Of a stretch of 64,000 bases of DNA, positions 22,770 to 27,389 are shown one piece after another. Under the pieces are notes generated by a model. It worked only from the letters and a program-made list of their open reading frames with translations. It did not search any database and was not told the origin of the DNA. Source of the DNA: Verrucomicrobiota bacterium. GTDB lineage: Bacteria; Verrucomicrobiota; Verrucomicrobiia; Opitutales; Opitutaceae. A program made the translations under genes and the position numbers. Position 1 is the stretch's first letter, and each line of letters begins with the position of its first letter. The stretch covers positions 62,001 through 126,000 of the forward strand of contig VHCJ01000002.1 of the NCBI GenBank assembly GCA_016871755.1. Direction: 5' to 3'.

Positions 22770-23672
22770 ATGGATGACTCCCTTTCCGCGATGTTCGCGA
22801 CCTATCCCTGGCTTGCTCCGGCCGCGGCGGGCGTCTTCGGCGCGATTCTGGGCAGCTTCCTCAATGTCGTGATTCTCCGCGTCCCCGCGGGACGCTCCAT
22901 CGTGACCCCGGGCTCGCAGTGCGGGTGCGGTGCGCCGATTGCGTGGTACGACAACATCCCGATCCTGAGTTGGTTCATCCTCCGCGGGAAGGCCCGCTGC
23001 TGCGGGCGCGCCTACTCCATCCGCTACGCGGCGATCGAGACCGTGACCGCAGCGCTCTTCGCCACATGCTGGCTGGTGCTCCCACCGGCGCAGGCGATCG
23101 CGGGCTGCGTGATGATCGGCGGCCTGATCTGCGCGACGTTCATCGATCTCGATCACCTGATCATTCCGGACGGACTCACCATCGGCGGTGCGCTGCTGGG
23201 GCTGGCGCTCTCGGTCGCCCTGCCGGCGATGCACGGTTTCAGCAGCGAGTTCTGGATCGCCGACGCCCTCCGCGCCGCCGTGGCCTCGCTGAAGGGCGTG
23301 TTCATCGGCTCGGCTGCGGTGCTCTGGATCGCCATTCTCGCTGAGGCGGTGTTGAAGAAGGACGCCATGGGCTTCGGCGATGTGAAGCTGGTGGGAGCGA
23401 TCGGAGCCTTCTGCGGCTGGCAGGGCGCCCTCTTCAGCATCTTCGGAGGCGCAGTGGTCGGATCCCTCTGGGTTGCCGCCGCGTGGCTGTGGCGTCGTGG
23501 AGGCGGCCGGCGGATCGTCCCGGCCCAGACTGCGGAGGGCGAAGAAACCGAACTCGCCCTTGGTGTGCACGTACCCTTCGGACCCATGCTGGCCGCCGGC
23601 GCAGTGATTTACGCTCTGCTCGCGCGTCCGTGGGTGACCGCCTACTTCGACGGCATCGCCTCCCTGTTCTGA
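22770..23672 (+). CDS. Type IV prepilin peptidase / N-methyltransferase (A24)
   Basis: 300 aa polytopic inner-membrane protease that cleaves and methylates prepilin-like leaders. N-terminal methylase region LGSFLNVVILRVPAG and a Cys cluster QCGCGAPIAWYDNIPILSWFILRGKARCC, an altered version of the usual four-Cys zinc motif (C-x-C and adjacent CC rather than two C-x-x-C). The two catalytic Asp motifs are FIDLDHLIIPD and GFGDVKLVGAIG. The probable substrate class is seen in this window: a prepilin-type protein at 62865. Start ATG 22770, 63 bp after aroE. Confidence 0.92.
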   Translation: MDDSLSAMFATYPWLAPAAAGVFGAILGSFLNVVILRVPAGRSIVTPGSQCGCGAPIAWYDNIPILSWFILRGKARCCGRAYSIRYAAIETVTAALFATCWLVLPPAQAIAGCVMIGGLICATFIDLDHLIIPDGLTIGGALLGLALSVALPAMHGFSSEFWIADALRAAVASLKGVFIGSAAVLWIAILAEAVLKKDAMGFGDVKLVGAIGAFCGWQGALFSIFGGAVVGSLWVAAAWLWRRGGGRRIVPAQTAEGEETELALGVHVPFGPMLAAGAVIYALLARPWVTAYFDGIASLF

Positions 23673-23858: not shown

Positions 23859-24842
23859 CTACTTGGCCGGGTTCGCCGCCGAATGCGGGCTCCGGCGCGG
23901 CGCCGCCTCGCCGCAGGATTCCGCGACCGCGGGGAAAAGCGCGAAATCGGACTCGTCCCCCGCCGGCGGCCGCGGCGGCAGGCCGCGACGCGAGCGGAAC
24001 ACGCTCCGGGCCCGGAGCGCAGCGATGCCCGGGCGCTCCACCCCGCGTTCGGTGAACCGTACCAGGCCGCAACGGATCGCGAGGCTGACCAACTGTCCCT
24101 TGTGCTGCAGCCGGAGTTTCTGATGGATGCGCTTCCGGTAGGCGTGGACCGATTGCAGCGACAGACCGAGGAAGTCGGCCCCCGTCTGGTCGTCCGAACC
24201 GTCGCCCAGCACCGCAAAGACATAGAGCTCCGCCGGACTCAGCACACGCTGCACGTGCCCGTTGGGCCCCTCCCCGCGCAGGATCTCGAGGAACGATTGG
24301 CTCCAGTAGGCTCCGCCACAACCGATCCGCCGGATCGCATCGGCGAGCCCGACCGCGCCATCGGAACGCGAATCCACCGCCCCGTGCGCCCCCAGACTCC
24401 GGATCGCGAAGATCACCTGCGGCTCACGCCGCTGCGTCAGCACCAGCAGGCGGTCGCACTGCCGCCGGGCCCGCGCCTCCGCCAGCACATCCAACGCGTC
24501 GCCATCCGTCAGCGTTTCGGACGCGATCAGGAAATCCGCCGCCCGCGCGGAAAGCGACCCGCGCAAGCCCACCCGGTCGCGCGCCTGTTCCACCTCGGCG
24601 TGCGGCAGGAACCGCGCCAACAGCCGCAGGACCGAGTCTGCGACGAGGCAATCATCGACCGCCATCAGCACCCGGCGCAGGTGCCCCAGCGTCACCACAT
24701 CGCAGGGCTGCAACTCGCGCGGCAGCGGCGCGAGCAACTCGGGCGCCGGGGACTCCGCGGCGGCAGGATTCGAACGCGAAACGGACGGAACCGACGAGGA
24801 AGGAGAGGCGAAACGCGGCGAGGCGGAGGATCGTGAAGGCAT
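23859..24842 (-). CDS. NarL/LuxR-type regulator with degenerate receiver domain
   Basis: 327 aa. After a Ser/Pro-rich N-terminus of about 55 residues comes a receiver-like region starting VLMAVDDCLVADSVLRLLARF. The acidic pair is kept, but the phospho-acceptor position is replaced (ADFLIASETLTDGDAL has Ser where Asp is expected), so it is probably not phosphorylated. The LuxR HTH follows (LSPAELYVFAVLGDGSDDQTGADFLGLSLQSVHAYRKRIHQKLRL, residues about 200-245). An Arg/Pro-rich tail of about 65 residues ends the protein. It lies directly downstream of three minus-strand small-peptide genes, 130 bp from the last, so it may control them or read the same signal. Start ATG 24842. Confidence 0.75.
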   Translation of the reverse strand: MPSRSSASPRFASPSSSVPSVSRSNPAAAESPAPELLAPLPRELQPCDVVTLGHLRRVLMAVDDCLVADSVLRLLARFLPHAEVEQARDRVGLRGSLSARAADFLIASETLTDGDALDVLAEARARRQCDRLLVLTQRREPQVIFAIRSLGAHGAVDSRSDGAVGLADAIRRIGCGGAYWSQSFLEILRGEGPNGHVQRVLSPAELYVFAVLGDGSDDQTGADFLGLSLQSVHAYRKRIHQKLRLQHKGQLVSLAIRCGLVRFTERGVERPGIAALRARSVFRSRRGLPPRPPAGDESDFALFPAVAESCGEAAPRRSPHSAANPAK

Positions 24843-24972: not shown

Positions 24973-25137
24973 TCAAAATGCCTGTCGAATGAAGTCCTTC
25001 AGGGCGGTCCAGTTCGCGATCGCGACGTGGCTGACGATCACGCCGATCACGAATCCGGCGAGCGCGGCGACAAGGGAGGAGCGGCGGGAACCGCGTTGGG
25101 AGGAGTTACGGTGATCTTCGTTCATCGGGTTGTTCAT
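24973..25137 (-). CDS. Small single-helix membrane peptide, relative of the neighbouring double-glycine peptide (peptide C)
   Basis: 54 aa. Charged N-terminus (MNNPMNEDHRNSSQRGSRR), then a hydrophobic helix with LAGFVIGVIV (residues 26-35) and a tail ANWTALKDFIRQAF. The pattern LAGF-[LV]-[LI]-G-[IV]-[LI] followed by W-x-x-[FL]-K-D also occurs in the peptide encoded at 25409-25582, so I infer common ancestry. Unlike that peptide it has no double-glycine leader and would stay as a membrane protein. It could be an immunity or accessory partner; this is speculative. No clear Shine-Dalgarno is seen. A second ATG at 25125 is possible. No database relative is known to me. Confidence 0.6.
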   Translation of the reverse strand: MNNPMNEDHRNSSQRGSRRSSLVAALAGFVIGVIVSHVAIANWTALKDFIRQAF

Positions 25138-25209
25138 TGGGGAAATCGGGATCGGGGGGCGGAGCTGCGGCAGGGCCGCCGGTGGACGACCCTGCCGCGT
25201 TTCAGGGCC

Positions 25210-25392
25210 CTACTCCTCCAGCGCGTACGCGAGCGCCTCGAAGAAGGCGGCCGTACCGGTCAGCGTCAGGAAGATGGGAGCCCGGCGGAGCACGGAGCGC
25301 GAATACGCCCCGAGGAACTGCCCGAGATCGGTACGGAAAGGTTCCAAACCGCCCCGGCAGGACACGAGTTGGTCAAGCGTGAGTGCGTGCAT
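25210..25392 (-). CDS. Small peptide with double-glycine leader (peptide B)
   Basis: 60 aa. The N-terminus MHALTLDQLVSCRGG has the hydrophobic spacing and Gly-Gly of leaders cleaved by C39-peptidase exporters. The predicted mature part of 45 residues starts LEPFRTDLGQFLGAY, is basic in the middle (SRSVLRR) and ends in a hydrophobic amphipathic-looking helix (APIFLTLTGTAAFFEALAYAL). A very strong Shine-Dalgarno, GGGGAGGA, sits 8 bp before the ATG and overlaps the stop codon region of peptide A upstream, which suggests translational coupling. I do not recognise the mature sequence. The function is unknown; a bacteriocin-like or signalling peptide is the obvious hypothesis. Confidence 0.75.
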   Translation of the reverse strand: MHALTLDQLVSCRGGLEPFRTDLGQFLGAYSRSVLRRAPIFLTLTGTAAFFEALAYALEE

Positions 25393-25408
25393 GGCGTGGT
25401 TCCTCCCC

Positions 25409-25582
25409 TCACACGTTGTTCCAACCATCCGCCACGGCGTCCTTGAACTCACCCCAGTGACCATAGATGTCCTTCGCGGCATGCGTCGCCGTCGCGGCGA
25501 GGATGCCGAGGAGGAATCCGGCCAGCGACAGGGGGCTGCCGCCCATTGCGGCGATCGCCTCGGTTTCCGTCAGGGTCTTCAT
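25409..25582 (-). CDS. Small peptide with double-glycine leader (peptide A)
   Basis: 57 aa. Leader MKTLTETEAIAAMGG ends in Gly-Gly at residues 14-15, exactly as in peptide B. The predicted mature peptide (42 aa) begins SPLSLAGFLLGILAATA, a hydrophobic Gly/Ala-rich helix, and continues HAAKDIYGHWGEFKDAVADGW, which is amphipathic and aromatic. The layout resembles class II bacteriocins or other GG-leader peptides. AAGGAA lies about 10 bp before the ATG as a Shine-Dalgarno. Its TGA stop runs into the ribosome-binding site of peptide B. It is the first gene of the probable minus-strand operon and lies about 300 bp from a divergent POT peptide transporter gene. No C39-type exporter is present in this window. 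Confidence 0.78.
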   Translation of the reverse strand: MKTLTETEAIAAMGGSPLSLAGFLLGILAATATHAAKDIYGHWGEFKDAVADGWNNV

Positions 25583-25883
25583 GGTTCTTCGTTCCTTTCG
25601 TCTCTCAGTGCAGGCATGGCCCCAGGGCAACACCCTCGGTCCGACGTGAACCCAAGGCTGCCGGGACCGGATGACCCCGCCAGCCCACCGATCGCCCTTT
25701 TCAGGGCGATGCGACGGGAGGGAGGCCACCGTGCACCGAGGAGGCGCGGAGACGGGTGCAGCGCCCAGCGCCGAATTGCCCCTAGTCGCGGGCGTCCGCG
25801 CCCCAGCGCGGTCCCCCGATGTGGTTGCGCGGTCGCGGATTGGGATTTGCCGCGCCCGGGCCCGCCACCCAAGCTCCGGCATC
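25583..25883. other. Divergent intergenic region, 301 bp
   Basis: Separates the peptide A-B-C block (minus) from the POT transporter (plus). It must hold both promoters. No long palindrome, terminator or further GG-leader ORF could be found in any frame. A weak minus-strand TTGCCC about 40-45 bp upstream of peptide A has no matching -10. Confidence 0.4.
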
Positions 25884-27389
25884 ATGGGCGTTCAGTCATC
25901 GGTCCCCGCCGTCTCTTCCTCCGCCGATGCCCAGGGCATGTTCGGTCACCCCAAGGGTCTCGGCACGCTCTTCCTCGCGGAGATGTGGGAGCGTTTCAGC
26001 TACTACGGCATGCGGGCGCTGCTCATGCTGTTCATGGTGACGTCGGCCGCAGAGGGCGGACTGGGCTACGACACGAAGGAGGCGGCCGCCGTCTACGGCA
26101 CGTACACCATGAGCGTGTACCTGCTGTCGATTCTCGGGGGGTTCATCGCGGACAATTTCATCGGCTCCCGCCGCGCGGTCCTCGTGGGCGGGATCATCAT
26201 CGCGGCGGGTCACTTCTCGATGGCGTTCAACTCGCTCTCCAGCTTCTACGCCGGGCTGGTGCTCATCGCCCTCGGCACGGGCCTGCTCAAGCCGAACATC
26301 TCCACGATCGTCGGCAGCCTCTACGCACCGGACGACGAGCGTCGCGACGCCGGCTTCTCCATCTTTTACATGGGCATCAACCTCGGTGCCTTCCTCGCCC
26401 CATTGGTCACCGGCTACCTCGCCCAAAGCCCGTCCTGGAAAGCGCAACTCGTGGCGATGGGCTTCAACCCGCTGCACAGCTGGCACTGGGGCTTCGCCGC
26501 GGCGGGGGTCGGGATGACGCTGGGGTTGCTGGTGTACGTGCTGCAGGGAGCCCGGCTCGCCCACGTCGGCAACCCGCCGCCGAAGATCGCCGGGGCCCGG
26601 CGTCCGTGGGCCCGCCTGCTCGGCGTGGCGGCCGGCTCCGCCGCTCTCATCGCCGCGATGAAGGCGAGCGATGACTACCCGGCGCTCGTCTACGGGCTTT
26701 TCGGGCTGCAAGTCGTGGCCGTGCTCGTCTTCGCGTTCCGGAGCGACGCCGACAGCAAGCGGATCGCCGCCATTCTGGTGTTCTTCATCGCCGCGGAAAT
26801 CTTCTGGGCGCTGTTCGAGCAAACCGGCTCCACCCTGGCCTTGTTCGCTGACCGCCTCACGCGCAACGAGGTCCTCGGCGCCCCGTTCCCGTCGGCGTGG
26901 TGGCAATCGGTCAACTCGATCTGGGTGATCCTGCTCGCGCCGGTCTTCGCGTACGTCTGGATCCGTCTCGGCCACCGTCAGCCTTCGAGCCCGATGAAGT
27001 TCGTGCTGGGCCTGCTCTGCGTCGGGTTGTCGTTTCTGTGGATGGTTCCCGCCGCCAAGCTCACCGCAGAGGGCAAGGTGGGGCCGGGTTGGCTGGTCGG
27101 GTTGTTCTTTCTCCAGACCGTCGGCGAAATGCTCCTGAGTCCAGTCGGTCTCTCCACCATGACCAAGCTGGCGCCGGCCCGGCTGGTGGGCCTCGTGATG
27201 GGCATCTGGTTTCTCGCCGCCGCACTGGGCAACAAGCTCGCCGGCGTGCTGGCCAGCGGCTTCTCCTCTGAGAATCCCAGTGACCTCGCGGACTTCTTCC
27301 TCCGCCAGGCGCTCTGGGTCGGCGTCGCCACCCTGGCCCTGTGGGCGCTGGTGCCCTGGGTGCGACGGCTGATGGGTGGCGTTCGCTGA
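25884..27389 (+). CDS. POT/PTR-family proton-dependent oligopeptide transporter
   Basis: 501 aa MFS-type inner-membrane protein. The diagnostic PTR2 N-terminal motif LFLAEMWERFSYYGMRALLMLFM (ExxERFxYY) is present. FIADNFIGSRRAVLVGG, LGTGLLKPNISTIVGSLY and FSIFYMGINLGAFLAPLV follow in the expected order. The C-terminal half has FWALFEQTGSTLALFADR, the conserved FEQ-like segment. It imports di- and tripeptides with protons. Start ATG 25884 (MGVQSSVPAVSSS). It is divergent from the small-peptide block. A role in taking up processed peptide is possible but not shown. Confidence 0.92.
   Translation: MGVQSSVPAVSSSADAQGMFGHPKGLGTLFLAEMWERFSYYGMRALLMLFMVTSAAEGGLGYDTKEAAAVYGTYTMSVYLLSILGGFIADNFIGSRRAVLVGGIIIAAGHFSMAFNSLSSFYAGLVLIALGTGLLKPNISTIVGSLYAPDDERRDAGFSIFYMGINLGAFLAPLVTGYLAQSPSWKAQLVAMGFNPLHSWHWGFAAAGVGMTLGLLVYVLQGARLAHVGNPPPKIAGARRPWARLLGVAAGSAALIAAMKASDDYPALVYGLFGLQVVAVLVFAFRSDADSKRIAAILVFFIAAEIFWALFEQTGSTLALFADRLTRNEVLGAPFPSAWWQSVNSIWVILLAPVFAYVWIRLGHRQPSSPMKFVLGLLCVGLSFLWMVPAAKLTAEGKVGPGWLVGLFFLQTVGEMLLSPVGLSTMTKLAPARLVGLVMGIWFLAAALGNKLAGVLASGFSSENPSDLADFFLRQALWVGVATLALWALVPWVRRLMGGVR

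Follow-up and report, generated by a model that had tools for sequence, protein, structure and literature searches.

Two-peptide bacteriocins are usually cationic, although this is not strictly a defining property. In those of class IIb both mature peptides contain a GxxxG or GxxxG-like motif, according to the available text of PMC8538875, which also notes that small immunity proteins with one helix exist; CbnZ, the 42-aa immunity protein of carnobacteriocin XY, likewise has one helix (PMC6957408, available text). The available portions of both papers call the immunity mechanism of two-peptide bacteriocins unknown or a mystery. The parts of the class II microcin systems of Enterobacterales, as given in the available portion of PMC9746304, are a double-glycine (Gly-Gly) precursor, a PCAT, a membrane fusion protein and a nearby small membrane protein. 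The gonococcal Nap system comprises Gly-Gly peptides, a C39 peptidase, a putative regulator and a LagC-like immunity gene, and its peptides, in the available text of PMC11798529, are described as bacteriocin-like, lacking detectable antimicrobial activity and promoting autolysis.

We have analysed a group of small genes within a stretch of 64,000 nucleotides (the window) from a member of the Opitutaceae. Two adjacent genes, for peptides A and B, are followed by a gene for protein C and a response regulator gene, and relatives of the strain carry an exporter locus with a further peptide, D. The resemblance to class IIb bacteriocins (TIGR03949; lactococcin G/enterocin 1071, NF038035) lies in the adjacent Gly-Gly precursors with unlike mature parts, the GxxxG-type motifs, the C39 ABC exporter of the relatives and the adjacent small membrane candidate immunity gene. 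The present system departs from class IIb in the acidity of its mature peptides, in the HlyD adaptor that most relatives have, in a protein C that resembles mature A and in the additional Gly-Gly peptide D, and its peptide and exporter genes are unlinked in this genus. The class II microcins, as far as the available portion of PMC9746304 describes them, have parts of the kinds seen in the A-B-C group and at the exporter loci of relatives; they have one precursor, whereas two or three are present here, and the assembly to which the window belongs is without a PCAT or a clear HlyD ortholog. The Nap island of the Gram-negative Neisseria gonorrhoeae, likened here by description and not by sequence, also combines several Gly-Gly peptides with a C39 peptidase, a putative regulator and an immunity-like gene, but, in the available account, its peptides are cationic and it has a FapF-like channel. 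CbnZ, again likened by description from partial text, is like C in being tiny and hydrophobic, with one transmembrane helix, and in adjoining a two-peptide pair; that text mentions no likeness of CbnZ to its bacteriocin. Among the titles listed by searches of part of the literature, none was on a double-glycine or bacteriocin system in Verrucomicrobiota or Opitutaceae, and the latter family would gain a Gly-Gly peptide export system through this locus.

The preliminary description of this DNA had reported three consecutive small ORFs of 57, 60 and 54 codons on the minus strand, and the coordinates and lengths were confirmed (Table 1), as was the position of Gly-Gly at residues 14–15 in two of the three, A and B. 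Its statement that all three carry a hydrophobic helix is a fair one for the window, where the top 19-residue hydropathy is 1.63 for A and 1.57 for B (both after the leader) and 2.49 for C; among orthologs of B the best such value is as low as 0.83. The translation of ORF A starts MKTLTETEAIAAMGG, and mature A has a hydrophobic helix, a W-x-x-F-K tail and a net charge of −2. ORF B starts MHALTLDQLVSCRGG, and its mature part joins the GxxxG motif GQFLG to a hydrophobic stretch, with a net charge of −1. Protein C has a basic N-terminus, a single hydrophobic helix, a W-x-x-L-K tail and a net charge of +3. The gaps calculated from the coordinates (16 bases between A and B, 72 between B and C and 130 between C and the regulator) are short enough to make a single transcript of A, B, C and the regulator plausible. 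A prepilin peptidase (A24) gene on the opposite strand, at 22770–23672 of the window, adjoins the regulator.

Table 1. Coordinates of the A-B-C locus and its surroundings in the window
Feature	Position	Strand	Description
Peptide A precursor	25409-25582	-	57 aa; leader residues 1-15 with Gly-Gly end; mature part 42 aa
Peptide B precursor	25210-25392	-	60 aa; leader residues 1-15 with Gly-Gly end; mature part 45 aa
Protein C	24973-25137	-	54 aa, leaderless; proposed immunity protein
Response regulator, NarL/FixJ type (receiver + GerE HTH)	23859-24842	-	Proposed regulator of the A-B-C locus
Inverted repeat TTCCCG-N7-CGGGAA	24917-24935	strandless	Between C and regulator; candidate operator or stem
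A-B junction	25393-25410	-	Purine-rich RBS-like stretch ahead of B, overlapping the last bases of A (read from the sequence)
POT transporter	25671-27389	+	Other flank of A-B-C

By itself the Gly-Gly pair is weak evidence: the window has 243 ATG ORFs of 40–80 aa, and 11 of them, counting A and B, show it in the leader region. It is conservation that gives real evidence for setting A and B apart from chance. Clear matches to A were found in nine of the ten genomes of the genus, the window's own included (E 2e-11 or better), and to B in the same nine (E 7e-8 or better). In the tenth, G009, the searches with A and B gave just E 0.12 and 0.47; its contig ends inside the regulator gene, the C-terminal part of which is present, and the peptide genes would be expected next. 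With that fragment at the very contig end, the peptide locus of G009 is probably unassembled. C follows B in the same nine genomes and the order A-B-C-regulator is kept, so that the synteny for which the preliminary description had proposed looking in relatives is indeed conserved. Orthologs are 44–75% (A) and 41–75% (B) identical to the window copies, and Gly-Gly is retained in all 10 copies of A and all 9 of B in the genus, the leader having textbook ends such as VTGG and VSGG in some relatives. A and B look like precursors of the C39-exporter kind, as the earlier reading had it. In G003 the A gene is present on two contigs (L033 = G003:C219 and L034 = G003:C394) with slightly different sequences, representing either a duplication or a strain mixture. 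Related loci in a public collection numbered eight, in seven metagenome assemblies with titles naming Opitutaceae, Verrucomicrobiota or Verrucomicrobia.

Selection on A and B is purifying. In a Nei-Gojobori analysis by script of seven genome pairs, the ratios of which are noisy for such small genes, dN/dS was 0.04–0.40 for A, 0.06–0.24 for B (one pair saturated), 0.09–0.31 for D and 0.04–0.76 for C, where the two pairs that include the window's own C gave the high values (0.56–0.76). For A, the four pairs among G004, G006, G007 and G008 gave 0.04–0.10, compared with 0.18–0.40 among the window's own genome, G005 and G003. Alignment of A with B by hhalign showed that the leaders are related (probability 91.5, residues 1–18) and the mature parts are not (probability 1.1). 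Mature peptides are acidic or neutral throughout, with charges of 0 to −3 in 16/16 A and 0 to −5 in 13/13 B sequences. Of the 13 mature B sequences, 12 have a strict GxxxG motif; among the 16 of mature A it is present in nine (GFLLG in the window's own A), two of these nine having it in the tail, outside the helix; under a loose test that accepts GxxxG-like motifs, all 16 A and all 13 B qualify.

The absence of any C39-type exporter from the genome had been named in the preliminary description as an observation that would refute its reading. Literally, this is what the window's own assembly gives, with zero matches to the Pfam C39 family (PF03412); yet each of the nine other genomes of the genus has one C39 exporter, and the window's own genome has a gap exactly at that place. 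The exporter is an ABC transporter, the C39 triad of Cys, His and Asp being identical in 12 of 12 aligned sequences (from the nine congeners and three sister-genus genomes); the frame in G002 is short (445 aa). Peptide D, a further Gly-Gly peptide with the motif GGFAPL, GGFEPL or GGFLP, was found by eye directly before the exporter in all ten genus genomes, the window's own among them. The idea that D is a helix peptide found no support, its best hydropathy being 0.28–0.80 in the ten genomes. A clear HlyD-type ortholog is present in seven of the ten (in G001 split in two pieces), and HlyD searches of the window's own genome, G003 and G005 gave weak matches only. At the exporter locus of these three (L067, L069 and L076) there is no HlyD, and lysA is found upstream of D instead.

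In the window's own genome D is intact (C7:102845–103045, on contig C7, L076). Behind it about 20 exporter codons remain, and the next gene adjoins these without a break (L076:9046–9165; G000:C7 approximately 103,045–103,165). When this region is aligned with that of G005, the left flank matches over 8.7 kb and the right flank over 3.4 kb, both at 86%; what is absent is a stretch of 2.3 kb that corresponds almost exactly to the exporter, and there is no N around the junction. The convergent neighbour at the junction has lost its stop codon and reads five extra residues. Two origins are possible for the gap, a genuine deletion of recent date and a mis-join in an assembly of 144 contigs; since the exporter is missing from the assembly and the peptide genes are intact, secretion would have been recently lost or be hidden by an assembly fault. 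If real, the gap is a natural experiment on the action of the peptides when they are not secreted.

A C39 domain was found in 72 of 252 genomes of the family. Outside the genus, 24 exporter loci were taken from among the matches listed, with 1.5 kb upstream of each; 15 were of the QRD type, and six of these 15 have A-like and C-like genes no more than 1.5 kb upstream of the exporter. The six represent three sister genera (G024, G131, G132 and G135 from one, with G203 and G091). A profile of B, which already contained G091, G024 and G135, recovers B in five of them (G024, G131, G132, G135 and G091), the B-like gene of G203 having been read by eye; the same profile gives a weaker match in G099 (E 4e-5), where a piece of C39 lies downstream on that contig, in the same orientation. 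In G024, G131, G132 and G135 the A gene comes after one for a D-like Gly-Gly peptide; in G203 this holds more loosely, and no D-like peptide was seen in G091. The G135 locus has an HlyD gene at its start. Since A-, B- and C-like genes stand just upstream of the exporter in six loci, A and B are very probably its substrates, and we have high confidence that the peptides of the group would be exported by a C39 system. The arrangement also suggests an older order (HlyD)-D-A-B-C-C39. In this genus the exporter is unlinked to the peptide genes A-B-C, which now adjoin a regulator that we propose to be independent of phosphorylation.

The preliminary description had found the mature sequences to be unlike any family that it recognised. 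This stands for the window's own A and B, which have no Pfam or NCBIfam match at library cut-offs, but does not extend to the relatives: with TIGR03949 (lactobin A/cerein 7B, class IIb; cut-off 21.5) the A of G091 passes at 22.9 bits and that of G001 just misses at 21.3, while the A of G024 scores 17.6 and that of G135 has no match (four A-like sequences scored). With NF038035 (lactococcin G-alpha; cut-off 37), three B-like peptides were scored, giving only 21.1 bits for G091, 21.3 bits for G024 and no match for G135. The TIGR03949 matches span the leader and, within the mature part, its start alone, and because family matches lean on the leader in this way they support the class only loosely. 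PF10439 matches the B of G091 at E 0.0026, below its cut-off, and the Pfam model for MccV matched three of nine B members (best E 0.015). A relative of A among solved structures was sought and rejected, the search giving three weak matches, the best to an antenna subunit (E 0.089) and the next to CtA (E 0.53), which we take to be a PCAT substrate.

The preliminary description had counted C as one of three membrane-active peptides. C is not another secreted peptide, and appears instead as a leaderless relative of mature A. Comparison of the profiles of mature A and C paired the two helices and aligned W-x-x-F-K with W-x-x-I-K (E 6e-4). When two further C sequences were added the score was 21.7, a value reached in 0/200 column and 0/200 block shuffles (maxima 17.2 and 19.5). 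With hhalign and 15 genomes the comparison gave E 2e-6, none of 100 column shuffles being as good, and with the six non-genus genomes E 3e-6 (0/100 shuffles). For the nine genus genomes alone the likeness is weak (probability 3.1), because 3 of 100 shuffles reach it. Profiles of B and C show no resemblance. Some of the non-genus C genes had first been recognised partly by the W-x-x-x-K motif, and C was therefore re-chosen by position alone, as the small ORF with an ATG start that is located, on their strand, between B and the exporter; this returned the same C in six of six loci, with starts in G203 and G132 earlier than those used in the 15-genome comparison. The motif is present in six of seven position-chosen ORFs, against 47 of 2347 small ORFs and 37 of 173 hydrophobic ones in the fetched loci, background counts that include A and C themselves, some repeatedly.

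The tails of A and C are also alike within a genome, being WPDFKK in both peptides of G203, WDSFKA and WDAIKA in G135, and WEDFKT and WESIKT in G091. For one genome per genus (the window's own, G135, G091 and G203) 10 tail residues matched, where the mean was 5.0, and of the 24 pairings this was the best. When such representatives were chosen in ten different ways, the true pairing ranked first of 24 in seven and second or tied in three. Eight representatives gave 13 matches against 7.9 (fraction 0.023), and for tail positions W+1 and K+1, picked after seeing the data, the fraction was 0.002. Inside the genus, however, shuffling gave more tail matches (mean 8.6) than there are within genomes (5), and this, together with the weak within-genus likeness of C to A, argues against the idea that C mimics A. 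C is basic in all 15 sequences (+2 to +4) and has three weak Pfam matches (best E 0.02), all below cut-off. As a small, hydrophobic protein adjoining A-B, C is a candidate cognate immunity protein, and its likeness to mature A without a leader leads us to propose it as a candidate A-mimicking immunity protein that would not be exported. The more specific idea that C is a decoy, a copy of mature A that has no leader, is not exported and, in the membrane of the producer, pairs with B or else caps A, we put forward tentatively, as possible though rather doubtful; were it true, immunity would have arisen by one half of a two-peptide toxin losing its export leader, a simple means of self-protection. 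A candidate immunity protein that resembles one peptide of the pair makes such a mechanism directly testable.

The regulator contains a LuxR-type GerE domain and groups, by sequence and predicted fold (mean pLDDT 75.7), with NarL/FixJ response regulators such as EvgA, DevR, VraR and RcsB, with which it shares the receiver and GerE HTH. It differs from EvgA and DevR, which keep the phospho-acceptor Asp: at the aligned residue, at the end of receiver strand 3, eight of nine orthologs have Ser and one has Gly. This comparison takes as given which residue of EvgA and DevR is the phospho-acceptor. It is in the missing Asp that the regulator is degenerate, as the preliminary description had called it, and because the residue is replaced in 9/9 orthologs phosphorylation switching there is improbable; the regulator is probably not switched by phosphorylation at the usual site. 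At E 1e-15, with up to eight candidates scored per genome, no fewer than 80 of the 252 family genomes have related regulators, and the regulator family as such is therefore not peptide-specific. TTCCCG-N7-CGGGAA is the sole match to the strict pattern in the window. Under a relaxed pattern a repeat is present at or just past the end of C in six of nine genus genomes, the window's own included; it lies inside the regulator gene in G007 and is absent from G001 and G002.

Our current working hypothesis is that the A and B precursors are cut after Gly-Gly and exported by the C39-peptidase ABC transporter, with the help of the HlyD adaptor in most relatives, and that mature A and B would then enter a membrane as a two-peptide pair, each with one hydrophobic helix, that of B with a conserved GxxxG. 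C, because it has no leader, would stay in the inner membrane of the producer and protect it, either by replacing A in the pairing with B or by blocking A-B assembly, and the adjacent response regulator would control the A-B-C set. The cleavage and export steps have comparative support; the later ones, namely pairing, target, immunity and regulation, we infer. That A and B form a class IIb-like, membrane-active two-peptide pair with C as protector we regard as somewhat probable. Against a bacteriocin stand the missing exporter of the window's own assembly, the acidic mature peptides and the absence of the window's A and B from any family; moreover, the acidity and the strong constraint leave the system open to roles in signalling or self-directed lysis, and the constraint on A would be more like that of a signal or a self-directed part than of an arms-race weapon. 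Strong purifying selection on A is thus one of the points in favour of A, B and/or D being exported pheromones to which the adjacent regulator responds, with C modulating; the regulator adjoins the peptides in nine of ten genus genomes and is a contig-edge fragment in the tenth, one exporter would serve three Gly-Gly peptides, and an ORF resembling a response regulator and having the usual Asp was seen by eye in G091, about 6 kb upstream of A. We nonetheless think signalling unlikely, given an adjacent regulator with Ser or Gly for the phospho-acceptor Asp, sister-genus loci in which no such regulator was seen by eye between peptides and exporter, and hydrophobic mature peptides of 42–45 aa with a matching membrane protein, which would fit pore formation better. 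Self-directed lysis or an effect on the cell's own envelope, for which the gonococcal peptides provide a precedent (autolysis without detectable antimicrobial activity, in the available text of PMC11798529) and in which C would act as a brake, with A strongly constrained, is rather improbable; the Nap peptides, as described there, are cationic and accompanied by a FapF-type channel, whereas the peptides here are acidic and most relatives have an ABC exporter with HlyD.

Two further explanations concern whether the genes function at all. The window's strain could harbour a decaying remnant that lost HlyD and then the exporter, the peptides being kept but unsecreted. Consistent with this are the clear HlyD in seven of ten genus genomes with only weak matches in G003, G005 and the window's own genome, the sharp gap at the site where the exporter would be, the higher dN/dS of A in those three genomes and the diverged C of the window; but the frames of A, B, C and D are intact in all three, the gap may be a fault of the assembly and the ratios of such small genes are noisy, and we consider decay improbable. 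That A, B and C are chance ORFs without function could appeal to the frequency of Gly-Gly among small ORFs of the window, and is very improbable in view of the identities of the A and B orthologs, dN/dS well below 1 and the linkage to the exporter in three sister genera; for A and B chance was ruled out by conservation and dN/dS, the case of C being less certain in the window itself.

Beyond the genus, the A profile matched G095 (8e-7), G024 (5e-6), G091 (1.5e-5), G154 (0.006) and G135 (0.01), with weaker matches in others, to give 21 of the 252 family genomes in all at E 0.1; used alone it missed G131, G132 and G203. A phylum search at E 0.01, in which up to 16 candidates per genome were scored, matched at least 7 of 387 genomes, four of them in the family (G091 being already in the profile). 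Wider spread in the phylum was rejected, the three non-family matches (E 0.001–0.007) being partial and inside longer frames, and a plasmid origin likewise, tblastn of the G004 A ortholog against a plasmid collection giving no match. G095 has a leaderless membrane frame of 103 aa with a C-terminus that is nearly the A tail (DIVAHWPDFKRAVVAGWNSV; L100:7056–7364 = G095:C2:199055–199363), of which no clear second copy was found in the 252 family genomes. The exporter region on G091:C11 (L102:72–11712) contains a second Gly-Gly peptide, a C39 fragment ORF and a response-regulator-like ORF, as well as three large ORFs of similar kind, two with weak TPR matches. Nine of the 15 QRD-type loci lack the A-/C-like pair and several carry other Gly-Gly peptides, which suggests a varied repertoire of putative Gly-Gly precursors in Opitutaceae; indeed, quite different Gly-Gly peptides precede the QRD-type exporters of L113, L115, L117, L118, L120, L123 and L124.
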